A stretch of DNA of 64,000 bases from Prorocentrum cordatum. Its lineage: Eukaryota > Sar > Dinophyceae > Prorocentrales > Prorocentraceae. The stretch is from assembly GCA_963575745.1 (NCBI GenBank), contig CAUYUJ010003447.1, forward strand, positions 1,349,284 to 1,413,283. Direction: 5' to 3'. The position numbers were made by a program, and so were the translations under genes. Positions 40,415 to 58,827 of this stretch are shown here, in pieces. Every line of letters begins with the position of its first letter. Within the stretch, counting starts at the first letter, position 1. The notes under the pieces are model-generated. The model was not told the origin of the DNA. It made no database searches and was given only the letters and a program-made list of their open reading frames with translations.

Positions 40415-40757
40415 CGGTGCTTGGATGAGCGGACCTCCGCTGCAGGCGCCTCGTAAGTGCGAGGCGACAAGCGGCATGGCCATGGCGTCGTTGGCTGTCC
40501 GGAGGCGAGCTCGTCGAACGTCGACGTGTGAGTGTTCGCGGCAGCAAAGTCGGCGCGTGAGGCTGTGAGCGTGCGACGCGTCAAGTGTGCTGGCCGAGAG
40601 GCATCGTCGGGCGAATGGCCCCTCTCCGCCGCACGCAGGAGAAGATCAGAGCGGGATGAAGGGCGGCATAGGCTGTTCAACCGATCGCCGACCGACCCGA
40701 CGATTGGCGCAGTGCGATGAAAACTAGCATTCATCTAGGCCCCTTTGCTGAGGAGGC

Positions 40758-41525
40758 GTGTATTCCGAGGAGAGACCGCCCTTGCGGCCCCACATGATCG
40801 CAGATGCGATGCTCATCGCGGACGGCCTGCCGGCAGGGAATCTGCTCAAGATTCCTGGCGTGGACGAGGCGGGGCTCCAGGACAGGGCGAGCATGGCCGT
40901 GATGGAGGCGAACGACATCAAGAAGCTGATCGGCGCTGTTCGCCACCTGCCGCGAGGAGGGCGTTCGAGCTACAGCCCCATCACGCGCGAGCTGAAGAGC
41001 CTCGCCAAGTGGCCGCCGGCCGGGGGGTCACCGGCGATGATCGAAGCAGGGGCACGGCGGGTGTGCCGACGACGATGCAGGAGCTGAACCGACGACGAAG
41101 GACGATGACAGCGAGCTATGGTGCCAGGAACATGGGTCACGCTTCCCCAGCGTCATCGAGGACACCGCGGGCGGTGAGACGCGTGGACCAGTCCATCAGA
41201 GTACGCAGTCCGCTGGATTCGATCGCGCGGCTCAGATGATAGAGATCGTCGGGCGCGAGGTGGGAGAAGCGCGGAGCGTCCGACAATGAGGACCGCAAGC
41301 CCGATCTGAGAGGTTGGTCTTGCCGCGCTCACGTGGGGGCAGGCTGAGAAGTCGAGCTCCGACTCGGAGTACTCCTACTCGGACGCGTGCTCCGGTTTAG
41401 CGGGAGGCCATCCAGTCAAGTGCGAGGATGTTCTGGCGATGCCCGGAGGTGCTGCAGAAACATTTCAGGGAGTCCGCGATGACGCCTGCCAAGTCCGCTG
41501 TGTCAGCGGCAAAACACCGGGCCAA
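40758..41525 (+). CDS. Hypothetical plus-strand gene, frames change twice
   Basis: The first segment, with ATG at 40794, reads MIADAMLIADGLPAGNLLKI, DEAGLQDRASMAVMEANDIK, SYSPITRELKSLAKWP. A second frame from about 41086 reads TKDDDSELWCQEHGSRFPSV, IEDTAGGETRGPVHQSTQSA, GFDRAAQMIEIVGREVGEA. A third from about 41342 reads AEKSSSDSEYSYSDACSGLA, GGHPVKCEDVLAMPGGAAET, FQGVRDDACQVRCVSGKTPG. Each piece is non-repetitive and protein-like, but the joins show no clear introns, so short introns, indels or decay are possible. An in-frame stop at 40749 bounds the left. Family unknown. Confidence 0.5.
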
Positions 41526-41537
41526 GGGAGGCAGGAG

Positions 41538-41581
41538 GGAAGGGAGAGAGAGAGAGAGATGGAGAGAGAGAGAGATAGAGA

Positions 41582-41618
<37 letters not shown>
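41538..41618. repeat. (GA)n microsatellite
   Basis: GAGAGA with ATGGAGA interruptions. Separates the plus-strand gene from the 3' end of the minus-strand retroelement. Confidence 0.9.
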
Positions 41619-41983
41619 GACAAGTAGGCGGACCGGGGTCCGTCCGCGAGGCGCACTGCGGTGCGACAACTCGCAAAACACTATTTGCGGCGGTGCAGCC
41701 TTTAGATACGAGGGCGGGCAACAAAAAACCCCTCCCCCGGCGCAGTGCGACAGACGCTACAGACGGCGGACAGACGGTGATGATCTCACCTGTCAGACCG
41801 CGTGAAGAAAGAGGCCCCAACAAGAAAGGCGACGTGCTGACACGTGGCTAGGCGGCTTGGCAGACCGCCAGTTGGGCGCTTGGCCGCAAAGCGGCGCGCA
41901 GTGACGGGGCATCCCCCGCCCCCACGCCCTGACACCGTGGACGCGGAGCCACGCGTACACACGGGCAGGCAGAGAGGAGGAGA

Positions 41984-42399
41984 CTAGCGCGGGGCACCAG
42001 GTGGAGCGCCGCGGAACGATGACAGCATAGCTTGGATGGTGAGTGACGGCACGGCACCATCGGGCGAGGGCGTGAGCAGCTCGGCGAAGGCTCGCCCGGC
42101 GCTGTGGAGGCGCTGGAGTAGAGGGCCTTGGCGAGCTTGGGCGGCGGCGATGTCCGCGGCGAGAGCAACGCACCTCTGCTGGAGAGCAGCCATAGCCTGG
42201 GACAGCTCGGTTTCGCGGTCGGTGAGGGGTGGCTGCTCAGTGCCAGCGGCCGAGGGCCTCGAGACAGAGGCGAGGTCCTCGGTACGCCTGTCCAGATGGT
42301 GGACTAGCGTAGTGCGGCACCCTGTACGCTGTCGTCCGTCACCTTGAAAGGTGACTGGAGGGGAACACGCGACCCCAGGGCTGGAGCCGCTAGGGCCAC
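41984..42399 (-). CDS. C-terminal tail of the retroelement polyprotein
   Basis: Frame 1 reads GPSGSSPGVACSPPV, RRTEDLASVSRPSAAGTEQP, LTDRETELSQAMAALQQRCV, ALAADIAAAQARQGPLLQRL, FAELLTPSPDGAVPSLTIQA, and stops at 41984. The helical segment could be a short coiled coil. The join with frame 0 upstream needs a frame change near 42400. The segment after 41984 (to about 41620) holds nothing recognisable and may be the 3' untranslated region. Confidence 0.55.
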
Positions 42400-43812
42400 G
42401 CCCCGAGAGGTCGGGAGAGCCGCATCCTCTCGCTCAGCAACGATGGAAGCGTGGACGGGGTGCGAGGGCCTGTCTGGTTCAGTGCCCTGCGGGGGGGCTG
42501 AAGCCGCCCCCGCGGGCTGCCGCTGGTGGGGCGGAGTGGTTTGCGCGGTGGGACCAATCATGATGCCGTGCGAGGGCTCTGAGGTCAGCCGCGTAGAAGG
42601 GTGGCGTCTCGGTAGGGCTGCATGGTCGGCAGCGTGGGGTGTCGGCGGTGCGTCGTCTATGCCACTCAGTCCGCGGGGGTCACCCAGGTCGTCGTCGGCG
42701 TCTTGGCGGTGGCCGATGTCATCGTATGGGGGCGATGTCGCTCTCGGAGACGGAGTTGCGGTAGGCGTCGAGAGGTTGCCCGACGGGGCAGGGTTTTCGC
42801 TGACTGGTCCGTCGTCCAAAGCGTCCGATCCCCCACCGAAGCTGAACAGGTCGTCCTCCTGTTCGTCAGCGTCTTGAAGGTGAGCGGCGTTGTCATGTGG
42901 GTGCGATGCCGCTCTCAATGGCGGAGTCGAGGGCGACGTGCGGATGCCCGACGGGGCAAGGTTGGCGCTGGCTGGCCCGTCGCCTAGGAAGTCAAGTCCC
43001 CCGCCAAAGCCGAACGGGTCGTCCTCCTGTTCGTCGAATATCGCCCGTTGGGCCTCGGCCCAGAGCTCGTCCGGGTTCTGTGGGATGTCTGGTCCAGCCG
43101 CGGGTGGTGCCTGGTCAGACAGCAGGGGGTTTGGTTCCATTTTGTTGAGTTCCGCAGCTGTAAACCCATCCCTGCGGTGTGGGAGGGGGAGTGTGCGGTG
43201 TCTACGCTCGTAGATGGCGACAGCGACTCCATGAAGCACGGTCGCTTGGCGATGTCGTGTTTTGGCAGCTTCTACAATGTCGTCTGGAAGGTTATGAGTA
43301 CGTGCCGCCGTTGTGGCGAGGGCGTCAGCCTGACGATTGAACTCCTCCGCGATGGGCCCGATGAGCCCGAGGTCGATGCCCATGTCGCCCTGGTGGCTAG
43401 CGACTTTCTCGACGCGGAACATGTTGGGCTTGGCCATGACGCATCGGTGGATCTTTTCCAGAGCTCCACGTGCGTGCCCTGCGGTGGTGAGTGTCCGTCG
43501 ATGATCCTTTGGAACCCATCAACCACCGCCTGGTTGTCCACGAAAACGTGTACGGGCCGTTCAGCACATGCCGTGAGGTGGACAATGGCGAGGGTATCCG
43601 CAAGCTGTGCGTTCTGCGTAATGCCGTGGACGCGTGCACTGTAGTGCATGCGGTGGTCGATGCCGTAGTAGACGCCGTAGCCCGCTCGTGCAAGCAATGG
43701 GATGGCTTGGTTGGTGCATGCACCGTCCGTGGCAGCGTAGACCCATGTCCAACCAGTGTCGTGGTCAAGGTAGGTGGTGTAGGATCCTGGGCTGAAGCCG
43801 CAGGATCTCCCT
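42400..43812 (-). CDS. RNase H domain and acidic C-terminal region of the retroelement
   Basis: After CGFSPGSYTTYLDHDTGW (frame 2) the RNase H reads WVYAATDGACTNQ (first Asp), GYGVYYGIDHRMHYSARVHG, AQLADTLAIVHLTACAE and VHVFVDNQAVVDGFQ (Asp, near 43540). After a frame change near 43430 it continues MFRVEKVASHQGDMGIDLG and EFNRQADALATTAA (last Asp, near 43320). It would degrade the RNA strand of the hybrid. A tail follows with an imperfect tandem repeat: DEQEDDPFGFGGGLDFLGDG and DEQEDDLFSFGGGSDALDDG, each followed by NLAPSG/NPAPSG. It runs on in frame 0 to about 42400 and contains one 13-mer copy at 42495. Confidence 0.8.
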
Positions 43813-43819
43813 CAGGGGG

Positions 43820-46460
43820 GGGCCGCGGTATGGGCTGTGGCAGCGGGTCCCTCGCGAGGTCGGCCTGCAGGTCGAGGAGGGCTGGGTCTTCGTCGAAGAG
43901 CCCGCAGTGTCTTGTGTGCGGCGGAAGACTGGCCCACTGATCGTCACTGATGAGGGTGGTGAGAGGGAGTCTTTCTCGGGCCCAGCACTTGCAGTCGCGG
44001 ACAGTGTGCTCCTGAGTTTCCTCTTCCTCGTCGCAGTATCGGCAGATGGGGCTGGGGTCAGCTGACGTGTTTGATCGGGATCGTCGCCGTTGGGTGTGGT
44101 CCCCGCCCGACAGGTAGTTCAGGAGGAGCGCCAGCTGCCAGGCAGTGCATTTGGCTGCTCCTTTCGTTCGGGCGAGCCACGTGCTGGCGAAGAGGTCGAG
44201 GCCCTGTCTGACAGAGGCAAGGTATCCAAGGTCGTGACGCCGTGGCTTGATCCTCCTCAGAAAGGCTCTGCGTTGTGAGGCCCGCAGCATGTGAAGGAAG
44301 GCGTTTTGGGGTAAGTTCAGCCACTGATCTGGCAGCCCCAGTCGTCGTACATGATGCCAAATGTGGGCCAGGTCCAACGGAGCTGCTGGAGCGTCTGGAC
44401 AAGTCGTCCGACAGGTCCCCCCCCAAACAGGGTCTGAACGTGGTGTTGGAGATCCCTGGCGAGACCGCAGAGTGTAGCGTCGCGATTAACCTGTCGCCGC
44501 AGACACAGGAAAACTTCACGCTGCGTGATGCAATCTCCAGGGCGTGTCCTGGAACGCACACGGCCATGAGAGTCCAAAACTCGACCCACTTGTTTCCCTT
44601 GGGGCGGATAGCCGCCTTAAGGGCATGGTTGTAGGCAGTTTTGACGGGGCCTGATGGGGCTTGAATGTCGGTGCCCGTGGTACAGACGCTGGCAGCAAGG
44701 GAACGGGCGTGCCGCGCCTTAATAAGCATCGGCGATGGAGCTTGCCAATGCGCGGCAGGCGACTAGTCGCCCTCCGAACACGGGCGTCAGCGGTGGCCGT
44801 GAGGTTAAGCGCGGCTGGAGCCGGCGCTGCCTCGGCGTTGATGTAACTCCCGACGAGCTGAAAGGAGTCGACCACGCGTAAGGGCCGTTCCGCCAGAGTG
44901 AGCTGGGTAACGGCGGTGTGAAGCTCGTCGGTGAGCGCCCACCCCGCCACTTTGCCAGGGTGAATGCGTTGACCTGAAAATCGATCAAACTTGGCGGTTT
45001 CATCAAGAGATTTCTGCAACTCAGGCGCGGTGTAAGTAGTGGAGTTGCTGTCGTCAACAAAGGTAGTGCTGAGTGATCGCGGAACGTATCGATGCTGTCT
45101 CTTGGTCCACACACACATGAGCAGCTTAATGTCGTCCAGGGACCAAGAGCTTCCCTGAGGTGACCGTTGGTCCTGGCCAATTCCTTAGAGTACGCTCCGT
45201 TCATGCGGATGTAGCGTTTGTGGCGACTGTAGAAGTTTCTGCGGACAGTAACGATGTCTTGGGGGCACCCCGCGTGAAGCGCAAGGTTAAGGCAGATGTC
45301 CGTGATGAGGTCGTCGAAACACTTCTGTCGGTCAAGGGCAGCCCCAGCTAAGGGTAGGAGTAAGGCCCTGGCGTGCTCGATGCGCAGGGCGAGAGAGGTG
45401 CTGACGTCCCCAATGGTAGCTTTTGGGACAGCGCCAAAGCTCGTGGCGTGGGTCCATCCTTTCCGCCAGTCCGTGAGGCTGCGGTAAGCTGGCGCTTCCC
45501 ACGCATACATCCAAACGGAAAGCACCGAGAGAAGTCGTTGGTCCGTTGGGAGTTCGCCTCGGCCGTTTCGGAGGCACGGGTTTGGCACATGAAGGAGGGG
45601 TTCTGGGATGGTGCCAGTGCGTTGCATAGCGCGTAAGACGCTGGCGAAGAGGCGAAGGATGTCGTCGGGTAACTCCTTAGCCTCCTTAGTTGTCCAGCCG
45701 TCGAGTCCCCCCGCGCGGCGCGGTGAACGGGTGCGAATGAAGTGGATGAGTTGGTCGTCGGTGAGGTGGAAAGGGGGTGCTGGTGATGGCGTAGGCAGCT
45801 CTTGTCGGTACTCGTCGTAGAAGTCAGCCCACGTCGGCATGGCTTCGGCGTCATGTCCAGCACGGGCACGGTACCTGCCCAAGATGGGCTCCCAGGTGTC
45901 GACCATGAGCTTAAGCATGTCCTTGGTGTTAGCAGCAATGGCGTTGGCAGGGAGAATGTCGGGGACTTGCGCAGGTGGTGGTTCACGAGTGTGGTCTTCG
46001 TCGTTGTCCGTGTCGGGCGAACTACCGTCGCTGGGGCTGAAGCCGCCAGCTTCGGTGTCAGCGTCGCTGTCGTCCGTGCTAGCTTTGTCAGGTTTAAAGG
46101 CGTTGGTCTCGCAGTGGAGTTGCGTATCGTCAGGTGTGGTAGGCGTGCGGAGATACGCCGTGGGCGAGCTGTCAGCCGCCCGTGCGTATATGGCCGCCTT
46201 TCGCCCGCTTGGCTCGCGGACGCCCTCAGCCCATATCTTGATGCGTTCAGCTTTGGCACGGTTCGCACGTCGCGCCAGCTCTGAGTCGAGGTGTTGGATC
46301 AAAACGTCAAGGTGCTCTCCGTGAGGTGCTGGCTCGTCGGGGGTCCAGGCCTCGGGGAAGTCAAGGAGAACCGTGGGGCGCAGCTTGTGACATAGGAGGC
46401 GGGCCGCGGTCCACGTGCAGTCGATGCGCTGCGCTAGGTACGGCGGGATGGCACGGCAGT
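43820..46460 (-). CDS. Reverse transcriptase, thumb and zinc knuckle of the retroelement
   Basis: The N-terminal linker (PPYLAQRIDCTWTAARLLC; TEAGGFSPSDGSS near 46040) leads to palm motifs: RAGGLDGWTTKEAKELP (near 45700), ALDRQKCFDDL (motif A Asp, near 45320), NG..QGSSWSLDDIK (motif B, needing a one-base frame change at about 45165) and STTFVDDSNSTT (motif C FVDD, near 45055). After a further change near 44700 comes NHALKAAIRPKGNKWVEFW, and after another near 44370 a helical thumb (NAFLHMLRASQRRAFLRRIK). The zinc knuckle CRYCDEEEETQEHTVRDC lies at 43985-44045. All catalytic residues are present but spread over several frames, so as assembled it is non-functional unless there are sequence errors or recoding. 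Confidence 0.85.
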
Positions 46461-47790
46461 CTAATGATGGTGCTGTCCGATGAAGCGAAGCTCACAGAGT
46501 TGCCGATGGAGCTTGCGCAGTCGGTTCATGTGTATCGTGGAAGCTCCGTAGGTGGGGAAGGCGCGGGGGACAACTGGTCGCTCCTCGAACCTGGGCGTGA
46601 GCCCGTGCATGGTGGGGGGCTTCTTTTTTGGGTGGTCGGGCGGTGAAGGTGGCAGGTCGCGCAGACGGGTGAGATGGTACTCATGACTGGCCTCGTTAGC
46701 CAGGGCGAACATGCGTTCCACGTCGTCGCGTGTGTCGGCCTGCTCCATGCGGTCCTGGTATCGCCCAGCGATGAGGGTCCCTAATGCCTGCAGTTCGTGG
46801 CCCTCGTGAGCTCCATCGTTGGGGGGGTAGGGCGTGGGGGCAAGAAGGCGTCGGGCCGTATGGTCGAGGCGACTGAGGTCTAGCGCGACCTGCAGGCCAA
46901 CATGTGACTTCGCTGGCAAGTCGCGCAGATAGCAGAAGTCGGTGACAAGGGATCGCGCCGCTGGGTTGGCAATGATAGAATCGATGCGCGAAGTGCGGGG
47001 GCACTTGGTGACGCGGTCCCAGTCAGGAATATTGCCGTATGTGTGCATGGTGTGGTCTGGTGTGCCCTCAGCGACGTTAAACCATCCGTGCTGCATCATG
47101 TGCAGCAGGTGTGGATTGTCGTCGATGTTCGTGTTGGCGTCCATGCAGGTGAAATACGGGGCTGAGCCGACCCTTGCGGCGGCGCAGTCAGCGAGCCGAA
47201 AAAGATCTGTGCTGTCTCCTTCAGCAACCCCGTAGAGGCTCGCTATGTAGATCCCAGCGGGCCCGTGGTTGTTTCGTCGCCGCCTGCGGCGGTGCTGAGT
47301 GCAGAGCGGGAGAAAGGCCTCGTGCCATCTTTTCTTGGCCTTGAGGGCGACGATACAGGGCGCAGTGTCGTCGACAGTGGAGTCGACAATGGCATCTTTA
47401 GAGAGGATGGCGACCCCTCCCGAGGCGCCAGTGTTGCCCACGACGGTGTGGTCTGTGCCGCCGTGGGCAGCTCTGCGCTGGGCTCGCGCCAGATCCAGGT
47501 CAGGTCCAAGACTGGCGTGGTATCCCCCGTGGTGTGGATTGGCGGCGCTGGTAGCGATGGCTTGTCTGGTCGGCTTGGCATGTCGGGTCTCCTGCAGTGC
47601 TATGACTGCGGGTTGTGGTCGACACCAAGAGCGGTGATGGTTGGCCAGTTCGCTGAGAGACTGGTGATGTTTAGGCTGACGAGGTGTATGGAGCGACCTG
47701 GCCCGCCTCCATCGGTGGAGCTGGGGTTTGCACGCCCGCACGGTGTAGGTCAGCCTGACCCTCGCCCAGGTAGAAGGCTTGGCCACAGTA
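46461..47790 (-). CDS. APE-type endonuclease domain of the retroelement
   Basis: Nicks target DNA to prime reverse transcription. The start is readable as HLVSLNITSLSANW (about 47690-47640). After a frame change near 47610 it continues AVIALQETRH (catalytic Glu), GASGGVAILSK, GIYIASLYGVAEG, FTCMDANTNIDD (Asp/Asn pair near 47140), SRIDSIIANPAARSLV (near 46975) and SHVGLQVALDL (near 46890, in the place of the SDH motif, with SHVG instead of SDH). The terminal Asp-His is therefore atypical. A linker HEYHLTRLRDLPPSPPDH follows. It stops at 46461, after which a second frame change leads into the RT. Confidence 0.85.
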
Positions 47791-48419
47791 GGAGCTCATG
47801 GCGTTCCTATGGATTGGCTTGACCGGGGCTGAAGCCGCCGTCAGGCCAGAAGTATAGGCGAGACATGGTCGGCACTGCGCCAGGGGGGGTTCATAAACAT
47901 CAGTAAAACTGCCTCGAAAAATCCTCCTCACTCCTGTACCATAGGGGACGAGGGGAGGAGAGGTGAGACGGCAGCAGAAGGAGAGGGAGGCGACTCCTCG
48001 ATCCGTCCTGCCGAACACAAAAGCAAAAGCGAACCAGCGGCGGCGGCTAGGCGCGGCAGCGGCACAACGCACGCGCAAATACTGCGCACGCGACACCGCT
48101 GGTCCGTCCTGCGGTGGCGCGCCCGCCCCGTCAGTATCTTGATGAGCAGCATCTGGTGGAACAGCTCGAGCAGCGCGGTCGGTGGACTGGCGCTGGGCCT
48201 CGTCCATGCCCGCTGCCGCGAGGCCCGCGTTGCGGATGTCAGTCCTGCGATTCCGCCGCGTGGGCCGCCGCTGCCAGCGGCAGCGGCTGAGGTGGCGGGG
48301 AGCTCCGCCACCGACTCTGAGGTGAGAAGCGTGACAAGAGAAAATATTCACAAAGAAAAAAGAAAATCTAAAGATCGTAATGATACGGCTAAGTAAAAAA
48401 AAAAAAAATAGAAACGTAG

Positions 48420-48893
48420 ACAAAGGAAAAAAAACTCGCCGCCGAAGCCCGCCGCAAGGTCCTTGACACGGTACTTGTTCTTGAACCGGTCGAAGGTCGG
48501 CGCCTTGTCGATGGGGGCGACCACGCGGGTGGGCAGCGGCGGCTCGTGGTCCGTGGACGGCGTCGGCTCGAGGTCGACCTGGCCAGGTTCGATGACGCTT
48601 GCACCGGAGCGTGGCACCACTTCGGGGGCTCGGCCATCAGCCTGAGTCTCGCGAGGCGGCGGGCTCGTGGAGCTCCCTGGGGCCTTGCGTGAGCTGTGGC
48701 GGCTGCAGGACCTGCTGCGCGGGACGCGCCCGCCCGTGTGGCGGTCGCGTGGCGAGGTCGCCTGGGCGTTAGCGCGCTCGGAATCCGCCCTGCTCGGGGA
48801 GCGGATCGGCGCCGCGCAGGGTGATGGGCTGGGCTGGCGGGAGCCGCTTGTGCCGCCCTCCGCCGTGGATGTGGCCTGGTCAGGGTCGACACA
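48420..48893 (-). CDS. Ser/Pro/Arg-rich exon-like segment between ORF2 and the endonuclease
   Basis: The minus-strand frame reads DPDQATSTAEGGTSGSRQPS, then RSPSRADSERANAQATSPRD, then VVPRSGASVIEPGQVDLEPT, RVVAPIDKAPTFDRFKNKYR and VKDLAAGFGGE. It ends at a T-rich tract whose edge (GGCGAGTTTT) can be read as an AG/G|GCGAGT-like donor. The next candidate exon starts after CACCTCAG near 48320. This is consistent with a continuation of ORF2 split by two T-rich introns, or with a linker of the polyprotein. No domain recognised. Confidence 0.45.
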
Positions 48894-48895
48894 GA

Positions 48896-49140
48896 TACTA
48901 CAACTTCATACAGTTAAACACAGACCGCCAGGATAACAAACATGAAAAAGAAAAGAACAGACAAGAAAAACTCAAATAAAAAAACACAAAGACGTAATAG
49001 TAGACAAAACGATACCAAACGAAAACAGAACAAAAAAATAGCGAACCGAGCAAAGCTAGACACTCACAAAAACCACACAACAACCAAGAAAATACAAAAC
49101 AAAACAACCACAAACACAAAACAACAATGACAACCAAAGC
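48896..49140. other. A-rich (plus)/T-rich (coding strand) tract
   Basis: About 240 bp dominated by A and C on the plus strand inside GC-rich DNA. On the element strand it is a pyrimidine/T-rich sequence ending TTGTAG. It is either an intron with acceptor near 48900 or translated as a hydrophobic ORF2 tail. A second, shorter tract of the same kind is at 48330-48445. Confidence 0.7.
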
Positions 49141-52100
49141 GTCGGGGCGGGGGCTGACGTGATGGGCGCTTCCCTCGCTGTGCCGCGGGGAGGCGCGGTG
49201 ATGCGCCTGGGTGTACGTGAGGACGAGCGGGACAAGCGGCTGCCTCTCCCGCTCAGGTGGGGCAGGTTTTGCCTGGGCAGGGCGCAGCGCTGCAGCCACG
49301 TTTGGCGGGGGCGTGTGCTGGCGCGGTTGCCAAGCACGCACGTTCGCATCACGCCATCCTTCAGGGCGCCCTGTCCTGCCACGGTATGTTGCAGCCCCCT
49401 GGGCTGAAGCCGCAGGGGTTATCACTGCGGGCTGGTTGCTGGGGGTGCCATCATGTCGGCCTGAGTAATGGCCCCAGGCGCGCGTGGACCCTGGCACGGG
49501 CGAGGTGGCTCGTGGGGGGGCCTGCACGAGTGCACGCGGGTAGCCGATGACCGCTGGGTGAACCCTGGCGTGAGGGGCGTGGCCGTAGCTGGAGGCGGCT
49601 GCTCCAGCCGCCGCGGGCCTGGCGCCAATGGGGCCACGGTAATAGGCGGCAGCTCCGCCGTAGGCCGTGCTGCCGCCCGTCGGGACTCGCGCGGGAGAGC
49701 GGTAGCGTGGCGTGCTCGGCTGACCTGCGTCGCGTTGGTCGCGCTGCTGAATGCGCTGCTGGTGCTGTTGATATCGCTGCTGGTCGGCTCTCGAGAGGGG
49801 GCGGGTGTCGGGGAGGATGGTGGGCACGTCGGGCCGCTGCCAGCCCCGATAGACGTGCTCGAAGGCGTGGTCTGGGCAGGTCTCCCCTACGGGTGAGTAT
49901 CGCCGCACATGCTCCATGTAGTCGATGTTCTGCGGCTCGGAGATCGCCGTGATGTTGACGGCTCGCTGGTGCGCTGGTCCATAGAGGCAGAAACTACCAC
50001 GGTTGCTGCGGTCGTGGTTTAGCTCGGCTTCGGTCGTGGCACGGCTCACCACGGCGTCGCAGAGTCGCATGTCGTAGTCGAGGGCTTGAGGCCCAGGACC
50101 ACCCTCGGCGTCCCAGTGCAGTGCCACGTCTCGCCAGCGGGTGCTGGTAGTGTGGATGCGCTCGGCGATCGACTCGCAGACGGTCCTGACCGTGACACGG
50201 TCCCTGTACATGTTGGTGATGGCTAGGGAGTAGGGTCGGCGGACCGTCTTGTTGAAGGTGAATTCCTCCTTGAGGGCCTGGTGGGGGCCGAAGAGCACGT
50301 AGCCTTCCCTCCAAAGAGGTTGGTCGGGGAACGGTTCTTCGGGCATCCCCGTTCCTGTAAACCCAGGTGGCCGCCTCGTGCCGTCAGGCAGTCCCTGCCT
50401 GGGGACGCGCCGCGGCCTCGGTGGGAAGTACCATTGACCCTGGTAACCTGCTTGGCCTGGTTGTGGAGGTTCCCCCCCGGGGCCTGAAGGCGCTCGGGGG
50501 GGTTCCTTGAGGTCGTGGTGGTCTGGCGCGTTGCCGTATTGGCGGGCAAGGATGTGCGGCGGCATCCCTGTGGCACGGACGTCGAGCAGGCTGTGTGGAT
50601 TGGGCGGATGGGGGCACCTGCTGGACAGGCAGCATGTGTCGGAGTCCCTGTTGTCGGTGCTGTATGCACACGTCCAGCTGTTGCTAGAGTAGTCCGTGGA
50701 CCAGTCCATAAGTGCACGCAGTCCGCTGCGGGCACAGTCTGGGCACGTTGGTTGGCCCGAGGTGCCGAGCTGCGTGTTGCGGCGGGCCGCACAGTACTGA
50801 CAGCATTGGAATCGGCACTGTAGGCAAGACCAGCGTCCTGGTAGAGGCGGGAGCGCATGCTCGTTTGTGCCTGGGTCGTCTGGGTGGGGTCGAGGGCGAT
50901 CCCACAAGGGCCAGACGTCAGCAAACCAGGATTGGCCTGTAGTGCGGACAACCTCGGCGGGGAAGCGAGCGTCCTCGGCATGGCACTCGATCCACTGGGG
51001 CCCCATGTCCGCTGGTACCATGACCGTGCGCCAGGTGTCGTCCGCTTTGACGTGGACTTGGGTCGGTGCCCAGAGCTTAGTAGTGGTGTCGCCGTGGTCG
51101 TGGTGGAGGACCCAGCCGTCCCGCCCCGCCACCGCAGGGTTAATGACGCGATGGCCCATGACTGTCGTCCCCCACGGTAAGTAGGCGCCGTCGTGGTGAT
51201 CACCAGGGTCAAGCCAGACCTCGATGCCAGGAGCATTGACACGGGCCCGCACATCACGGACGTGGTAGGCGAGGACGTGGTAGGCAGTCGGCTCCTCTTC
51301 CGTCTCAATGTGCTCCCACGTCTCGATGTCACTGTTGTCTGGGGTGGAGTTTCCGCCACTCTGTCGTGACGAACGGGAGGCGGATCGCCGTGGGCGGGCG
51401 TGGCCTCGGGCGAGGGCGGCGGCCGCGCTGATGAGGGAAGGCGTACGGCGTTCGTCGGCTCCTGATGTCGTCGATGAGCGGTCTGGACTGTGCGTCAGGG
51501 CTGTGCCTGACTTGTGAGTGCGCGGTGGGCCAGACGCGGCCCCAAGGCTGGAGCCGCTGGGGCGCGACTCGCGTGCGTCAGGATGCCCCCGCACGGGGAC
51601 GGCTTGCAAGCCAGTGTACACCAGGTCGATGAGTGGTTTCGGGTCCAGCTGGAGCTTGCGAAGCGAGACGCGTGGGCGGGGCTGGTTAGGGTCGCCCCTG
51701 GTGGCTGCTTCAGTGTCGTAGTGCTGTTTGGCCCATACTCGCGCTGCCTCTGGCGAGTATAGTGCCTGCGGCGGTGGCCACGCTGCCGCGATGGCTGGTC
51801 TGCGCCTGGTGCTAGCTTCCTGGTCGTGAGCTTCAGCCGCCTCACGGAGATCTGAATGATCGTAGCCAGCGATGTGAAGGGCGTGCGCGCAGTCTCCCAT
51901 GCCATAGGCGTGTGGTAGGGCACGGCACCTGGAAGCAGCTTCTGTGGGGGCGCACCAGTCCATGCGGATGAGGAGGCTCAGGACCCGAGGGTAAATGAGG
52001 CGCGCTCCGTGGGCCTCCCCTTTCACGAAGTTGTGCCTGTTTTCCCCGCGCGGTGGTTGGGTGGCCTCGCATATCCAGAGTGCGATGGGTCCCCACGCGA

Positions 52101-54759
52101 GGGTGTCGTCTTCGAGACTGTAGGGCGGGTGGGGCGGCATTGCGTACCACGCGGCCAGCGAAGGGTGCACGCTCACGTACGTGCGGCCAACGTTGGTGCC
52201 AGTTCGACCCTTCGCTTCACGGCGGGGACCTGGCAAGAGGTGCCCTCCGCTGGCAGCAAGACGGGCCGCAAGATCGCCGCGGGTCCCACGCCAGAAGACA
52301 GTGGGCGCGTTGGTGGTGGGTTGGCGGAGGTCCCACGCGAGGTAGGGGAAGATTGTCTCGCCTGAGTTCCCGCCCGAGTCTTCCAGCACCCAAGTGAGGC
52401 GGTTCGGGGGCCTCTGCATGATGTCAGTCCACGGCCCCAGCGCTTGGAGTGTTAGATCATGGGTAAATCGAGGTTGGTCGTGGAGTCGCAGAGCGTCTTT
52501 GATGTCCTCTGTAGACACGCCACTGTTACCAAGCGCAAAGCCGTTTTGGTACAGGGCGTTGAGGATGCTCGTCGGCGGCACGGGGACCGCTGGGTCGCGC
52601 TGGATAGTGTTGCGTAAGTTGCGTGTCGGTGGCTTGAGGGCTGTGTAGGGCATACCAGGGCCTGAAGGCGCCTGGGGCCTGGCGGGCGAAGCATAGCGTG
52701 CTCGCCGTCGTGGTGGTTGGGTGTCCGCGTCGGGAGAGGAACCACGAGCATCAGCGTGTCGGAAGATGGACCACGGGCTAACGTGGGTGCACTCACGTGT
52801 TTCCCTTGCCTCGGTGTCGCTGCCGTGTGCTGTGGCGTCCTCATTAGTCGGTGGGTTACCGTATGCCGCGCCGCTTTTGGAGCCGTCTCGCGGGGACGGG
52901 CTGGTCGATCTTGGTGTGACAGACGAGGCTCGCGATACGGCGGCAGTGACTTCGACGATGGCGGCGGTGGTGGCGGTGGTGACATCGGCGACTGCGGCGG
53001 CAACTGCTGCGGCGCAGTGTTCCTGCAGCAGCGGATGTCGGAGTGAGTGCACGTGTTGGTCGTCGTGTTCGTCGGCAAGCGTGCACGGCATTGTGTATGT
53101 GGCCTCATCGCGCGGCCTCCTGCTCGGTTGGCAACAGCGGAGGCACCACTGGGCTGTGGATGAGTCCAGGGCCCGCGCACAGATGCGGGCTCCTACGTGT
53201 CCGACGGCTCCTTGAGCTAGAAGTTTGGCGCCGACGAGTAGAAGACCGCACACAACTCCGCCCGTGGCAATAGCCCCGAGTTTGCCGCTGGCCCATTTCA
53301 GGGCACCCCCGAGGCCGACCCCGACTGCGCTGGCTCCGCCCGAGACGCTATCTCTGAGTTTGACGCTGGTCCACTTGAGAGTGGCCCACAATGCGGACGT
53401 GACATTGTATGTCGTTGTGCGTCGGGATGTGGTGGGCACAGATGGGCCTGGTGCCGCCGCTTCACGTCGTCGTCGTTGTCGGTAGCTGGGGTCTCGGCTC
53501 GGTGTCGGCAAGTAACCATCGATCTGGTCCTTGTACGGCATTGCTATCACGATGGCGTACGTGGCCACAAAGAGGCAAATGAGGCAGCCACAGTGTCGTG
53601 ATGCCGCTGCGCTGTGCTGGGGCTCGTGGGGACCGCTGGCATCTGGGTACTCGTCATCGATGGGGTCGTTGTCGATGTCGGCCTGCCAGTGGTCAATGAC
53701 ACTGGGGTTGGAGTCAGTCACGTTAACACGGCATACAAGGGTGCGGGGCGTGATGCTGCCACCTGCGGTCTGGGGATATCCAGGTCTAGCCAGTGCTGCA
53801 GCGGGGCTGAAGCCGCCACTGCGCGGGCTGGCATGAGCTGGCGATGCAGTGGCATGGCTTGTCGCGTCGGCGGCAGTGGCGCCTTCAGCGTCGTTGAGCT
53901 GTGCGCAGGGGTCGGCCTGGGCCGAGTTGTTGGGCGGACTGCTGCGCGACGAGGTGTGCCCTAGGTGGGGTTCACTGTCACGGTCACGCTGGGCCGTGTC
54001 GCCTGGTGGTGTCGTGCCGTCGCGATCTTGGGTTTCCATGTCGTCCTGGCTATCGTCCACATGGACCGAGCCCAGGGATATGTTGCTGATATCGTCCGAC
54101 GCGTGGAACGAGTCCAGGGGTGTGTCGCTGATGTCGCTGGCCGCGATGTGCTGGAGCAGCCATGATACGGGGTCGTCTGCTGCCTGATCACCCGTGGCGT
54201 GCTGGGCGAGGCCAGCTGGCGGTGGTGGGTTAAGCGGTTCCATCGGTGCCGCGGCGAGCTCTGCCTCCACAAGCGGCTGCATGTCTGTCGGGTGGTGCAG
54301 GATCGCATCGGCGAGGTGCGCCAGGGCGTCTTGGTCGGGTGGGGGAAGGCCTCTTGGTAGTAAGGCGTGGGCCCGTGAGAGGTATGGCGGCAAAGGTGCC
54401 GTGAAAGCCTCAGGACCGACGAGCGTGGCCCGAGCGCCCTGGTATTCCAGAAGGAGGCCAAAGTAGCGGGTGGCGTACTCGCGGCTGCTCTGGATACGAG
54501 TGAGGTTGCGGTTGATGCGCTGTCTGTCGGGGCCCGCTCTGTGCCAGATGTCCTCGCACATGTCGACCGCGGTGCGCTGACGCAGGGCGTCGGTTGTGTC
54601 CTCAGAATCCTCCTGGAAGAGGTGATCGTACTGTGGCAGATGAAGCGTCGCCAGAATGTACGGGACGCAGTCCTCGAGCCATGCCCAGAACACGTCCTGG
54701 TGGTCCTCACCTGGTGCCCACGCCGCAGCGCACGGTATGAGCCGGGCGCGGATCATCAT
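48898..54759 (-). CDS. Retroelement ORF2, giant protein of unknown function (1953 codons)
   Basis: The ATG at 54759 overlaps the preceding stop. The N-terminus has DVFWAWLEDCVPYILATLHL and a helical region, then disordered sequence with SGGFSPAAA near residue 315. Two hydrophobic segments follow (CLICLFVATYAIVIAM, about residue 395; GVVCGLLLVGAKLLAQGAVG, about 505). At about 815-880, FWRGTRGDLAARL, GGHLLPG and GRTYVSVHPSLAAWYAMP resemble an ADP-ribosyltransferase-like fold. A WVLHHDHGD/WLDPGDHHDGAYLPWG region lies near 1150-1220. A Cys cluster (CLQCRFQCCQYCAAR...CPDC) lies near 1310. The rest is Pro/Gln/Arg-rich. The final 80 or so codons cross a T-rich tract and read as an extremely hydrophobic tail, so the true end is probably near 49150, with an intron or a membrane anchor beyond. 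No known polymerase or protease domain was recognised. Confidence 0.75.
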   Translation of the reverse strand: MMIRARLIPCAAAWAPGEDHQDVFWAWLEDCVPYILATLHLPQYDHLFQEDSEDTTDALRQRTAVDMCEDIWHRAGPDRQRINRNLTRIQSSREYATRYFGLLLEYQGARATLVGPEAFTAPLPPYLSRAHALLPRGLPPPDQDALAHLADAILHHPTDMQPLVEAELAAAPMEPLNPPPPAGLAQHATGDQAADDPVSWLLQHIAASDISDTPLDSFHASDDISNISLGSVHVDDSQDDMETQDRDGTTPPGDTAQRDRDSEPHLGHTSSRSSPPNNSAQADPCAQLNDAEGATAADATSHATASPAHASPRSGGFSPAAALARPGYPQTAGGSITPRTLVCRVNVTDSNPSVIDHWQADIDNDPIDDEYPDASGPHEPQHSAAASRHCGCLICLFVATYAIVIAMPYKDQIDGYLPTPSRDPSYRQRRRREAAAPGPSVPTTSRRTTTYNVTSALWATLKWTSVKLRDSVSGGASAVGVGLGGALKWASGKLGAIATGGVVCGLLLVGAKLLAQGAVGHVGARICARALDSSTAQWCLRCCQPSRRPRDEATYTMPCTLADEHDDQHVHSLRHPLLQEHCAAAVAAAVADVTTATTAAIVEVTAAVSRASSVTPRSTSPSPRDGSKSGAAYGNPPTNEDATAHGSDTEARETRECTHVSPWSIFRHADARGSSPDADTQPPRRRARYASPARPQAPSGPGMPYTALKPPTRNLRNTIQRDPAVPVPPTSILNALYQNGFALGNSGVSTEDIKDALRLHDQPRFTHDLTLQALGPWTDIMQRPPNRLTWVLEDSGGNSGETIFPYLAWDLRQPTTNAPTVFWRGTRGDLAARLAASGGHLLPGPRREAKGRTGTNVGRTYVSVHPSLAAWYAMPPHPPYSLEDDTLAWGPIALWICEATQPPRGENRHNFVKGEAHGARLIYPRVLSLLIRMDWCAPTEAASRCRALPHAYGMGDCAHALHIAGYDHSDLREAAEAHDQEASTRRRPAIAAAWPPPQALYSPEAARVWAKQHYDTEAATRGDPNQPRPRVSLRKLQLDPKPLIDLVYTGLQAVPVRGHPDARESRPSGSSLGAASGPPRTHKSGTALTHSPDRSSTTSGADERRTPSLISAAAALARGHARPRRSASRSSRQSGGNSTPDNSDIETWEHIETEEEPTAYHVLAYHVRDVRARVNAPGIEVWLDPGDHHDGAYLPWGTTVMGHRVINPAVAGRDGWVLHHDHGDTTTKLWAPTQVHVKADDTWRTVMVPADMGPQWIECHAEDARFPAEVVRTTGQSWFADVWPLWDRPRPHPDDPGTNEHALPPLPGRWSCLQCRFQCCQYCAARRNTQLGTSGQPTCPDCARSGLRALMDWSTDYSSNSWTCAYSTDNRDSDTCCLSSRCPHPPNPHSLLDVRATGMPPHILARQYGNAPDHHDLKEPPRAPSGPGGEPPQPGQAGYQGQWYFPPRPRRVPRQGLPDGTRRPPGFTGTGMPEEPFPDQPLWREGYVLFGPHQALKEEFTFNKTVRRPYSLAITNMYRDRVTVRTVCESIAERIHTTSTRWRDVALHWDAEGGPGPQALDYDMRLCDAVVSRATTEAELNHDRSNRGSFCLYGPAHQRAVNITAISEPQNIDYMEHVRRYSPVGETCPDHAFEHVYRGWQRPDVPTILPDTRPLSRADQQRYQQHQQRIQQRDQRDAGQPSTPRYRSPARVPTGGSTAYGGAAAYYRGPIGARPAAAGAAASSYGHAPHARVHPAVIGYPRALVQAPPRATSPVPGSTRAWGHYSGRHDGTPSNQPAVITPAASAQGAATYRGRTGRPEGWRDANVRAWQPRQHTPPPNVAAALRPAQAKPAPPERERQPLVPLVLTYTQAHHRASPRHSEGSAHHVSPRPDALVVIVVLCLWLFCFVFSWLLCGFCECLALLGSLFFCSVFVWYRFVYYYVFVFFYLSFSCLFFSFSCLLSWRSVFNCMKL

Positions 54760-55217
54760 CAGGTGCCAGAAAGCGGGGTCCTCCTCGGGTTCGCCCCTAG
54801 CGCACAGGGGGGTGGTGAGACCCGTGGGCTATAGCGGGGCACGACAGCGGGGCTGAAGCCGCCACTGCGTGCCTGGCCTGTATCAACGTCCCCGTCAAGG
54901 ATCTGCTGCACCACGGTCGAGGCCACGCTGGGGGTGGATTTCGATGCATGTGTCGTAGTTGACAAGGGCGTGCATGCACTCACGATGGCGCCCAGCGGTC
55001 CGTTGCCGCACGGACCCGCGGCTGCGGTGCTGTTCACGATCGGGTCCAAAATGGTGCAGTGATCGTACTTGTAGATGCTGTCATCGTAAAGGTAGAAAAG
55101 AGTCCCACGTTCAGCGTGTCGCAGGAAAACCTCACCTCCCTGCTGGGGCGCACCGCCTGAAGACGGGTGTGCTCCAGCGAGCGAGGGGAGGGCCAGGCTG
55201 CAGGCAAGGCGCCACAT
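54759..55217 (-). CDS. Small ORF (152 codons) with signal-peptide-like start
   Basis: From the ATG at 55217 it reads MWRLACSLALPSLAGAHPS, a short hydrophobic h-region ending in a small-residue site, as in secretory signal peptides. Then come GGEVFLRHAERGTLFYLYDD, a potential N-glycosylation site (NST), and a Ser/Thr/Pro-rich tail with SGGFSPAV near residue 120. The frame is open upstream to 55481, but the earlier start would be TTG. It ends with TGA whose last base is the first base of ORF2's ATG (TGATG). Function unknown. A secreted or membrane role is inference from the N-terminus alone. Confidence 0.55.
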   Translation of the reverse strand: MWRLACSLALPSLAGAHPSSGGAPQQGGEVFLRHAERGTLFYLYDDSIYKYDHCTILDPIVNSTAAAGPCGNGPLGAIVSACTPLSTTTHASKSTPSVASTVVQQILDGDVDTGQARSGGFSPAVVPRYSPRVSPPPCALGANPRRTPLSGT

Positions 55218-55477
55218 GATGGCGAGGCCTGGCGGGCGGCGTGAGCGATGAGCCAAAAGCTGCATGTCAGCACGCATCCTCAGATACCCCTGCATGCTCA
55301 TGTACATTGCAACAATCACGCCCCCTGCAAGATGACGGGTGTCCCTACACAGATAGCTTGCGCGTGCTGCTGCCAAAACTGACATGATATGACAAGAAAG
55401 AGATACGACGCGAAGAGAGAAGAGATGCCTCTGAAGGCGCTTCCTCGGAGGGCTGAGGCAGGCTCTCTGAGGCACCT

Positions 55478-58048
55478 TCAATAGGGTTCCTGGGTGACCC
55501 GACCCTTGTCTTTGCCTTTGTCAGCCCCTGGGGGCCCCGTCCCTGGGGCGACCTGGCCTGGCTGGTCGATCCACCCGCAGACAACCACGGGATCGGCAAC
55601 TGATGCAGCTTCCTCCTTCTTAGTTTCCAGAGTGGCCACCTGTGGCAGGTGGATGGTGCCCCCCGTGAGGTGCCCGAGGAGGGCCTGGATGTCGCCACGC
55701 AGTGCAGCGGCTTCGGCGGTTGCCGTCTGTTGCTGGGTGACGACGGTGGTAAGCACCCGTTCCAAACCTGAGACGTGTTCCGTGAGTGTGGCCTGGGAGG
55801 AGAGAACGCCCGCAAGCTGAACCTGCATGTTATCCACCGTGTTGGCAAGCAGCTCGCGCTGTTGTTCCATGTGTTGGATGCGGGTCGTGGCGGCATCTGG
55901 CAGTTTAGGGGCCGATGCGAAGCGTTCGCCGAAGGTGTTGAGTTCGTGGGAAGCCACGCTGAATTCATCACCTGATGAGAGGATCTCGACGTCGTCAGCG
56001 TCGCCTGGTACTTCGGCGGCTGTGGCAGCGTCCCCTTCGGTGTGGCCCCCACCTTCAGCCGCCACCGTGCCAAGCTGCGGGTCATGACCACCTGATCCTT
56101 GGACGGCCGTCTGCTCGGCAGCTCCGTCCGTGCCGTGCGGGGGTGCAGAGGAGCTGCGGCCTGGGGCGCCGTGTGATCTTGCGTGCGGCGCGGCGTCGCG
56201 TTTCCCGCTGGAGGATCGGTGGCGCTTGGCTAAAGGCTCCTCCTTGGGGATCAGGGGCGGTGCGACGCCCATGCCTTTGGGCGTGGCAGTCATGAGGTCG
56301 TGGAGGTAAGGGCTCTGGGCCGCTTTGGTAAGGAGTGTGCCAGTGGCGGGGCTGAAGCCGCCACCACGGGCTGGCGGCGTCACAGGCTCTGTGATGGTGG
56401 TAGGCGTGACGATGGTAACGTTGTCCCTCTTCGGCACCACCTCAGCCAGCGGGACCTCGGTGATGCTCCACGGGATGGGGCACCCTGCGACCTGTACCGT
56501 ATATGTGAGTGGGGGACGATGGGCGCGCACTAAGGCAAACTGAGCCGCAGTGGCTGGGTCCCAGGCGGTGTGGTAGACCTCACAGTCCCATTTAACGGAC
56601 GGGCCCGTGAGAGTCTTGGCGAGCTGGGTCAGCGTGGCGTGGCGTGCCGCAATGCCAGTGACGCGGTAGCGCGTCTTGGCGAGGGTGGCTTCGCAGCCGC
56701 GGATGCTGACGGCAGCAGCCTTGGCGGCGTCTGACCCTCGTGAAACACGGATCCCCAATAAGCCTGACTTGCCGTGCCTGACGACTCCCAGGGCCTTGAA
56801 ATCCACCGACGTCTGGAACGCATCTGCCATCGTGATGGGCTGGTCCTCAGGGAACCACACGGTCTGGTACTTGTCTGCAGTGGGCTCGTCTGCACCTACG
56901 TTGCTGAGGTCGTAGGTGGCGCCGAGTTGCCCTGAACCCGCCAAGACCTTGTCAACCGCTTGGAGACTGACGCCGAAGGTGGCAGCCAGGGACCTCTTTC
57001 CGACGCCCGATCCAAACCTGCCTAGGCTTTTGCAGGGTTCGAGGATGGTGACTGCTTTAAAGTTGCCGTGGAAGAGGGCCTTGAAGGTGTCCTGGAGCTG
57101 ACTATCGAGCTCCTGGCGGCGAGCGTCTTTCTTGGACTCCCTGTGCTTTTGGTTTTGGCGCGCCATGTCCTGTGGAGCGGAGTCCCCTCGGAAAGGACCC
57201 TTGGCGCGTGGACCACCGTTCACGGGGGCACCTCCCGAGAACTGGTCCTCGAAGGCCTGATGCATGGAGGGGACTGCGGCGATGGCCTCGGTTTCATGTA
57301 TGGTCGCCCGAATCCAGCATACGTGGTCGGCAGGGTCGATTGTGGCGACGGCTACTTTTTCCGTGCAGGCGACTTCCTTGGTGCCCAGCTGGTACACGGT
57401 CACGGGGACGTGCGTGTGGACCACTTTGGGCGCCTTGGGGTGACGCTTCAGCACGGGGACGGAGAGCTCGGTACCGACGTAGTTGTCGTTTTTTGGGCCC
57501 ATGACAGCAATCGCAAGCTGACCCGTGGTACGCTTACCCTGCTCGAGGTGGTGTTGCAGCAGCCGTTCACCGCTCTCGTAGTCGTGGAGGCTGATACTGG
57601 GCTTGTACGTCTTGCCGTCGTCAGGTGACGTGGGTTCGGCGAGGACTGGGACCTTCCAAAAGGCCGGGTCCAAGGCGATGAATTGGGCGCCCGCAGCCTG
57701 AAGACGTGCGGACCCAGCTGGTGGGTGTGATGTGTCACCGCCAATGCGCTTAGGCTTGCTGCGCCGGTGGTGATCCAGCGTGTAGCTGATCTGGTTGGCG
57801 GCGCACATGCGGATCAAGGCACTGCCGAGCTTCTTCGTGTTGGTCTTGTGCATGTCGTACGTTGCCTGGAGCTCATCCGCGTTCAGCTCGGCAAGCCCGT
57901 TGTATGCGGCCGTGGGGCGGTCAGACACCGCTTGCTTGAAAGCTGCGATGCAGTCCTGCTTGCGTTGGAGGAGAGACCCTTCAGCAGCAGGACGTGAGCT
58001 CGGGGGCTGCTTGGAAGAGCGACGGCGCTCCGGCTTGCTGGGGGCCAT
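55478..58048 (-). CDS. Retroelement ORF1 (856 codons), coiled-coil protein
   Basis: The ATG at 58048 (MAPSKPERRRSSKQPPSS) opens a single uninterrupted frame. The basic Ser/Pro N-terminus is followed by DCIAAFKQAVSDRPTAAYNG and LGSALIRMCAANQISYTLDH. A mixed alpha/beta body follows (YVGTELSVPVLKRHPKAPKV; KALFHGNFKAVTILEPCKSL; GSGVGKRSLAATFGVSLQAV; LAKTRYRVTGIAARHATLTQ; YTVQVAGCPIPWSITEVPLA). A GGGFSPATG motif lies near residue 562, then disordered acidic/Gly-rich sequence, then a long coiled coil (about residues 715-805: IQHMEQQRELLANTVDNMQV; HVSGLERVLTTVVTQQQTAT). It probably binds and packages element RNA. No zinc knuckle is visible. Intactness over 856 codons argues for recent activity or selection. 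Confidence 0.82.
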   Translation of the reverse strand: MAPSKPERRRSSKQPPSSRPAAEGSLLQRKQDCIAAFKQAVSDRPTAAYNGLAELNADELQATYDMHKTNTKKLGSALIRMCAANQISYTLDHHRRSKPKRIGGDTSHPPAGSARLQAAGAQFIALDPAFWKVPVLAEPTSPDDGKTYKPSISLHDYESGERLLQHHLEQGKRTTGQLAIAVMGPKNDNYVGTELSVPVLKRHPKAPKVVHTHVPVTVYQLGTKEVACTEKVAVATIDPADHVCWIRATIHETEAIAAVPSMHQAFEDQFSGGAPVNGGPRAKGPFRGDSAPQDMARQNQKHRESKKDARRQELDSQLQDTFKALFHGNFKAVTILEPCKSLGRFGSGVGKRSLAATFGVSLQAVDKVLAGSGQLGATYDLSNVGADEPTADKYQTVWFPEDQPITMADAFQTSVDFKALGVVRHGKSGLLGIRVSRGSDAAKAAAVSIRGCEATLAKTRYRVTGIAARHATLTQLAKTLTGPSVKWDCEVYHTAWDPATAAQFALVRAHRPPLTYTVQVAGCPIPWSITEVPLAEVVPKRDNVTIVTPTTITEPVTPPARGGGFSPATGTLLTKAAQSPYLHDLMTATPKGMGVAPPLIPKEEPLAKRHRSSSGKRDAAPHARSHGAPGRSSSAPPHGTDGAAEQTAVQGSGGHDPQLGTVAAEGGGHTEGDAATAAEVPGDADDVEILSSGDEFSVASHELNTFGERFASAPKLPDAATTRIQHMEQQRELLANTVDNMQVQLAGVLSSQATLTEHVSGLERVLTTVVTQQQTATAEAAALRGDIQALLGHLTGGTIHLPQVATLETKKEEAASVADPVVVCGWIDQPGQVAPGTGPPGADKGKDKGRVTQEPY

Positions 58049-58234
58049 TGCTGCGGGCGCTCTGGTGGGGAGAGGTGACGCGAATCAGTAGGGTCCTGCT
58101 GGGACCCCTCCGGTCTCGCGAGGCCTGGGAGTCTGGCTCCGAGGCGGGGCGCTTCGCGTCGCGGCTGCGGTCTGAGTGCTGGGCCTACTGGTCTCCGAGG
58201 CCGAGACCTGGGAGATGAGGAGAGAAGAGATTCG
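58049..58234. other. Sequence upstream of retroelement ORF1
   Basis: GC-rich non-repetitive DNA between the ORF1 start and a purine tract. It would contain the element's 5' untranslated region. No promoter motif is recognisable. Confidence 0.4.
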
Positions 58235-58316
58235 AGAAGAAGAGAGAAGAGGAGGAGAGTGAGAGAGGTTGTGTGGATGTCTTTTTTTGGCTATTAGGGA
58301 GATGGGGAGAAAAGGA

Positions 58317-58355
<39 letters not shown>

Positions 58356-58700
58356 AAGATGAGAGAGAAGGGTTAGAGAGATGACGAAGAGAGAGTGGGG
58401 GAGAGGAAAGAAGGAAAGAGAAGAGTAGAGAGGCAGAGAGACGAGAAGATAGAGTAGTAAGGAGAGAGAGAGTATTGAGAGAAGAGGAGGAGATGGCGGT
58501 GAGTAGAGAGAGATGGGAAGGAGAGAGAGAAGAGAGAGAGTAGAATGGAGAGGGAAGGAGTGATTGGAGCAAGAGGAGAGAGAGAGAGAGCAGAGAAGAG
58601 AGAGGAGGAGGAGGAGTGTAGGGAGGAGGAAGGGGAGGGAGGAGCAAAGGAAGGAGGAGGATTAGGGAGGAGGAGGAGGAAGGAGAGGAAGAGAGACCCC
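58235..58700. repeat. (AG)n/(GGA)n purine tract, about 460 bp
   Basis: Almost pure purine on the plus strand. It lies upstream of retroelement ORF1 and of the plus-strand gene at 58.8 kb, so divergent transcription would start on either side of it. Confidence 0.9.
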
Positions 58701-58827
58701 AACTACGACTCCAACACGACTCCAACTTACAGACTCTCCTCCCTCCCTACCTTCCCTCCTCCTCCTCCCCCCCCCCTCCTCCTCCTCTTCCTCTTCTTCC
58801 TCCTCCTCCTTCTCCTCCTCCTCCTCC

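Follow-up and report, generated by a model that had tools for sequence, protein, structure and literature searches.

Fifteen covarying RNA hairpins with a near-constant bulged tip along a LINE-type retroelement of Prorocentrum cordatum

Results

We analyzed a stretch of 64,000 nucleotides from the Prorocentrum cordatum genome (assembly GCA_963575745.1, contig CAUYUJ010003447.1, forward-strand positions 1,349,284 to 1,413,283), here called the window and numbered from its first letter. The window contains element A, a retroelement of the LINE (long interspersed nuclear element) type that occupies about 16.6 kb of the minus strand (41617..58207, with ends judged by eye beside (CT)n) and whose frames are interrupted in this copy. 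Its open reading frame 1 (ORF1, 55478..58048, minus strand) encodes 856 aa, for which a structure model predicted a long helix near the end, and had no Pfam match above the cut-off. ORF2, on the same strand, comprises an N-terminal part with 1976 codons open in the window copy (48898..54828), an endonuclease part (46461..47795; Exo_endo_phos, 5.2e-5, a match of 23.5 bits that lies below the cut-off of 24.5) and a part with reverse transcriptase (RT), zinc and tail regions that is spread over several frames in the window copy (42304..46491).

The initial annotation had reported a 13-mer at eight positions within this element, always in one orientation and nowhere else in the window, and all of this proved exact. 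The eight copies lie on the plus strand, no further exact match was present on either strand, and shuffles predicted 0.01 copies. A search allowing two mismatches added six places in the window, four of them on the same strand within element A. Genome-wide (4.13 Gb, 21,875 contigs) we found 12,016 exact copies (5,736 and 6,280 by strand) as compared to 390 (198 and 192) for the reversed pattern. The places inspected, about 100 among the matches listed, fell mostly into same-orientation sets with recurring gaps (for example 1299, 2250, 1795, 1215, 4402, 966 and 1377), indicating that the 13-mers belong to copies of one element; the genomic 13-mers are parts of copies of a LINE-type element of ~16 kb that ends in (CT)n.

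Comparison of the flanks showed that the 13-mers are bordered by inverted repeats differing from site to site. On the sense (minus) strand every 13-mer folds as a variable stem, a bulged C, GGC, UUCA and GCC, and the eight sites had 6, 6, 6, 5, 3, 4, 6 and 6 of six further outer pairs against a background mean of 2.1. The set of eight was correct but not complete, since seven further sites have the same architecture, with a UUCA or UCCA loop and an inner pair that is changed with compensation. The sense RNA of element A carries about fifteen such hairpins, and the 13-mers are their constant tips; we counted 15, all on the sense strand, with gaps mostly of 1.0-1.3 kb. The hairpins at the 13-mers lie on the minus strand at 56342..56368 (in ORF1), 54843..54869, 53797..53823, 49394..49420, 47819..47845 (interrupted stem), 46027..46053, 43782..43808 and 42488..42514. 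The other seven, also on the minus strand, are two with GUC-UUCA-GGC at 57688..57714 (in ORF1) and 55147..55173, two with GCC-UUCA-GGC and hence a swapped inner pair at 52652..52678 and 50474..50500, and three with a UCCA loop at 51538..51564, 44805..44831 and 42371..42397. Individual sites are named below by a coordinate that lies within them. From 5' to 3' in the sense RNA the hairpins follow one another at 1346, 1195, 304, 1046, 1145, 1114, 1064, 1080, 1575, 1792, 1222, 1023, 1294 and 117 bases; most copies among the matches listed have about 1215 where the window has 1575. This spacing is more even than random: only 0.025% of 20,000 simulated placements attained its coefficient of variation of 0.38 (P 0.00025). 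The placement, which the initial annotation had related to the element's architecture, is described by this near-even spacing.

The tip consists of three pairs (G-C, a variable pair and C-G) closed by a four-base loop U-Y-C-A, and the single unpaired nucleotide on the 5' side was C in 15/15 window hairpins. Across the 15 sites there was no variation in the bulged C, in G10-C19 and C12-G17 or in the U, C and A of the loop, and the middle inner pair was G-C, C-G or U-G. Folded in isolation, all 15 gave the same tip, with shuffle z-scores of -1.6 to -5.0. We also scanned for the shape (a one-base bulge, three pairs, a four-base loop and an outer stem) with the loop letters left free. The sense strand of element A contained 33 such shapes, with the loop UUCA in 11 and UCCA in three, while the 88 on the rest of the minus strand and the 52 on the element's other strand had no preferred loop (at most four alike). 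The 14 shape-scan sites and site 47838, added in spite of its interrupted stem, make up the 15; candidates at 54622 (3/6 outer pairs, weak) and 53451 (loop CCCA) were excluded, and a match in L028 was rejected because it had no stem. An Rfam search of window positions 41400-58400 returned six matches up to E 5, none of which reached the gathering score.

The stems covary. In the window set of 15, standard pairs filled 92.0% of the pair cells as compared to 62.9% after shuffling, 35 pair cells were doubly changed against 10.4, and the covariation score was 0.71 against 0.17 for shuffles and at most 0.21 for slid versions, an excess over the slid versions that is partly built in since the structure was derived from the same sites. 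With six sites of a second element, B (see below), and one from a diverged A copy, 94.1% of pair cells were paired, 60 were doubly changed against 19.2 and the score was 0.77 against 0.18, over 22 sites that include two near-duplicate, hence not independent, pairs of element B sites. Some compensated changes were also seen in diverged copies; an outer C-U mismatch of the window at site 56361, for example, is a G-C pair in L031.

Chance in GC-rich DNA was ruled out as the source of the 13-mers and hairpins by shuffle counts and by an unrelated viral-contig control. With an outer stem of at least 5/6, block dinucleotide shuffles of element A gave 0.12 hairpins, against 14 sense and two antisense observed. 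The viral-contig DNA (1.01 Mb) contained 0.46 hairpins per 16 kb and strand; of its 115 matches to the 15-base core, four had each of the five further outer pairs, and there was never more than one match per contig piece. A covariance model built from the 15 sites gave one weak plus-strand match within element A (14.7 bits) and, in the rest of the window, none up to E 3. A relaxed shape scan of the window outside the element found three weak shapes, and with any bulge base allowed the minus strand there had one UYCA shape.

The tips are conserved among copies. Between the window and the fetched copies, with 5 to 10 sequences per site and pairwise comparisons that are not independent, 63/6,814 comparisons differed at the 13 core positions (0.92%), 149/6,280 in the outer stems (2.4%) and 5,720/83,566 in the flanks (6.8%); 8/195 core columns were variable as compared to 444/2,400 in the flanks. 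The A copies were located via exact 13-mers, which favours the eight canonical sites, but at the seven non-canonical sites the core differed equally little (32/3,486, 0.92%, against 3,039/43,183, 7.0%), indicating that this search bias does not account for the conservation. In a diverged A subfamily (L027 9489-9515; L031 1926-1952) site 53816 is followed, 37 bases downstream, by one more hairpin, GUC-UUCA-GAC, which indicates that hairpin sites are gained or lost.

The hairpin array of element A is common to a second element, B, despite an unrelated interior. Element B is 7 kb long and was found between two A copies on contig C2. Its resemblance to A is limited to the tips, namely the first ~15-30 bases after (CT)n and the last ~380-545 bases at 82-89% identity; the interior had no match to A by blastn (matches >60 bases) or tblastn. 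At least 40 B copies had 98-100% identity (40 scored among 237 candidates). Another copy, L167, aligns over 6,970 bases with 98.7% identity, its flank beyond matches neither B nor A, and it has an open frame of 1929 codons; a third, L168, begins within an assembly gap and terminates with the same (CT)n. Six B hairpins were detected in sense (1116, 1245, 2147, 4225, 4339 and 5983 of the cut stretch) and none in antisense; block dinucleotide shuffles of B gave 0.09. All six are present in L167 and the four within its sequence in L168. About four of the six are independent, given two local duplications, and in two of the six a bulged A replaces C. The last of the six falls outside the long frame, which in L167 ends 100 bases before it. 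A public relative of the B protein, P0015 (41% over 38% of the query), has GGFSP near its end. We also noted that the long B protein (L011 822-3779, minus strand; L167) has two stretches that appear hydrophobic by eye, and that P0015 and the B protein share two conserved blocks in reversed order.

At the 13-mers the initial annotation had read a peptide, GGFSP, with two or three exceptions, which was an undercount. In long open copies sites 56361, 54862, 53816 and 46046 read mostly GGFSP and sites 49413, 47838, 43801 and 42507 mostly AASA, with exceptions in the longest frames of L011 (site 43801), L017 (site 46046) and L027 (site 47838). Site 57707 lies in the third frame, as judged from the ORF1 coordinate, and reads ARLQ in the alignment. 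Since the hairpin sites occupy all three reading frames, GGFSP is a by-product. When synonymous codons were shuffled in three long open frames, the 2, 6 and 6 hairpins observed compared with means of 0.15, 0.12 and 0.03 (14 against 0.3 in total), and the 34 hairpins of this shape with any loop in these frames comprised 11 UUCA, three UCCA and at most two of each other loop. The frame and synonymous-codon tests thus refute the GGFSP motif as sole cause, and with it the suggested signal for polyprotein processing or a linker. An RNA hairpin, GGC-TTCA-GCC, had been proposed as well; that was the right kind of structure, but the attached role in recoding or reinitiation does not fit sites that lie inside long open frames, in three frames, with one B site outside a frame.

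Discussion

We think it probable that the array serves recognition by the element's own machinery, for assembly or selection of a ribonucleoprotein (RNP) from A and B RNA. The bulge and loop would be read by one protein, most likely A's own (from ORF1 or from the long N-terminal part of ORF2), with a host origin less likely; sites every ~1.1 kb would tag the element RNA along its length; and A RNA, plus B RNA in trans, would be selected and compacted into the retrotransposition RNP. More tentatively, the protein may be element-encoded and may condense the 16-kb A RNA into an ordered particle via the evenly spaced bulged UYCA hairpins, with B riding along on hairpins that it kept or gained, so that the two would form a two-part retroelement system.

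Several observations weigh against this reading. The structure model of ORF1 is poor (mean pLDDT, predicted local distance difference test, 42.4). The stem at site 47838 is interrupted, single copies have other loops (GUCA, UUCG, UUCC and UUUA) and the inner pair is broken in copy L023. With any bulge base allowed, the plus strand of the window (64 kb) had seven UYCA shapes. Public relatives of element A were compared as proteins. GGFSP is encoded at the ORF1 site in P0008 and P0011 (88 and 59% identity), the GGSSP of P0009 (72%) would be consistent with a UCCA loop, and P0002 and P0006 retain GGFSP at site 46046; the distant ORF1 relatives P0012-P0014 (41-46% identity) and, at site 46046, P0004 are without it, so these two sites are not ancient. 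P0010 does not extend to the ORF1 site.

In MS2 and similar viruses, multiple stem-loops that have a coat-protein motif in common are dispersed over the RNA (PMC4751978; PMC6281560). Like those packaging signals, the A RNA has many stem-loops along one molecule, inside coding sequence, with a common recognition motif on variable stems. Unlike in MS2, the RNA is of LINE type, the tip is near-constant and not degenerate, the sites are ~1.1 kb apart and a second element shares them. The likeness suggests that the array acts much as dispersed packaging signals do in some single-stranded RNA viruses, with packaging itself presumed by analogy.

Recognition signals of LINEs are, to our knowledge, single 3' structures, and we know of no LINE with such an array; a literature search turned up no LINE hairpin array of this kind, which does not prove its absence. 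Partner pairs of LINEs and SINEs (short interspersed nuclear elements) share a 3' tail. Element B similarly shares the 3' end of A (about 380-545 bp, 82-89%) and the (CT)n tail, but unlike a SINE partner it is ~7 kb long, has the 1929-codon frame in L167 and shares A's 5' tip too. For stringent-type LINEs and for L1/Alu, a stem-loop of the 3' untranslated region (UTR) with a bulge near the loop has been proposed as the recognition site of the LINE machinery, shared with a parasite element; it has a loop of 5-7 and a bulge 4-6 bp from it (PMC5135761). The hairpins of A are like it in the bulge near the loop and in the sharing with a partner, but they number ~15 through both ORFs, with the bulge 3 bp from a four-base loop. 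All 15 lie at or upstream of 42371, and none was detected from there to the 3' end at ~41617.

Binding by a host protein or enzyme, acting in export, localisation, stability, silencing or RNA modification, is an unlikely alternative, even though a bulge and loop that stay constant while the stem is free have the form of a protein site whoever owns the protein. Counting against a host binder are the window outside element A, which had no model match up to E 3 and the three weak shapes given above, and L019, the one LINE of another family examined, which has no conserved hairpin. L019 encodes GFSP at one place, but among 20 copies read, out of 41 matches listed, neither core nor stem was kept. 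It is a useful negative control, as the covariance model gave its single hairpin 30 bits, and we rejected the idea that the hairpin is general to LINEs of this genome. Sharing between A and a partner that has A's tips also fits an element-encoded binder better.

Ribosome pausing between domains of a very long polyprotein, for which 15 sites within the A coding sequence, many ~370 codons apart, would be suited, seems quite improbable. A stable stem would suffice for it and the constant bulge and loop would be unneeded, the last B hairpin lies beyond its frame, and sites 42507 and 42390 are separated by 117 bases. A DNA or cDNA structure, either a single-strand hairpin or a protein site in integration or recombination, is very improbable. 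The inverted repeats and the head-to-tail element arrays described below are in its favour, and first-strand cDNA would carry the complementary hairpin, but the 15 A and 6 B hairpins are all in sense with the bulge on the 5' side, and a double-stranded site needs no single orientation. Least credible is a GGFSP linker or cleavage motif, or a short mobile or introner scar as also proposed initially: most long open copies have the identical peptide at four of the sites, but frames that read GGFSP, AASA and RLQ and the synonymous-codon null stand against such a motif, and a scar leaves unexplained the stems that are unlike between sites and remain complementary at each. Dinoflagellate introner elements are introns with inverted repeats at both ends (PMC10666404); inverted repeats are common to both, but here they form hairpins of 27 bases, most of which lie in open frames.

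It is an open question by what means LINE proteins select their own RNA and how parasites take advantage of this. The array of about 15 covarying hairpins, present also in a partner whose interior is unrelated, makes it testable with one short RNA probe. It would also link the assembly of LINE RNPs with the packaging-signal model developed for RNA viruses. Other large genomes can, in addition, be searched with the array for related elements.

Additional features of element A

The assignment of the ORF2 domains drew on other copies and relatives: copy L014 had weak RVT_1 (0.092) and zf-RVT (0.19) matches, P0003 had RNase_H (3.9e-7) and zf-RVT (2.1e-4), and RVT_1 is listed for P0007, a distant relative (E 2.6e-5). 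The N-terminal part of ORF2 (48898-54828) had no Pfam match up to E 0.1; by eye its stretch FWRGTRG...GRTYVSVHPSLAAWYA may resemble an ADP-ribosyltransferase-type fold. Long terminal repeats are absent, and a self-comparison of window positions 40500-60500 showed only an internal duplication of ~177 bp. Near the end of ORF2 we noted a tandem duplication of 168 bases (42764-42867 and 42932-43035, 79% over 104 bases), which the C21 copy has too. Element A follows (CT)n and terminates in (CT)n, being flanked on both sides in the window (41533-41620 and 58217-58720), and on C21 (L013-L016) it forms head-to-tail arrays whose unit measures about 16.27 kb. The flanks and arrays look as if A's own tail were the target of the next insertion. 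P0010, an ORF1 fragment of 99% identity, is filed under a Myxococcales metagenome-assembled genome and is probably a eukaryotic contamination of the bin.

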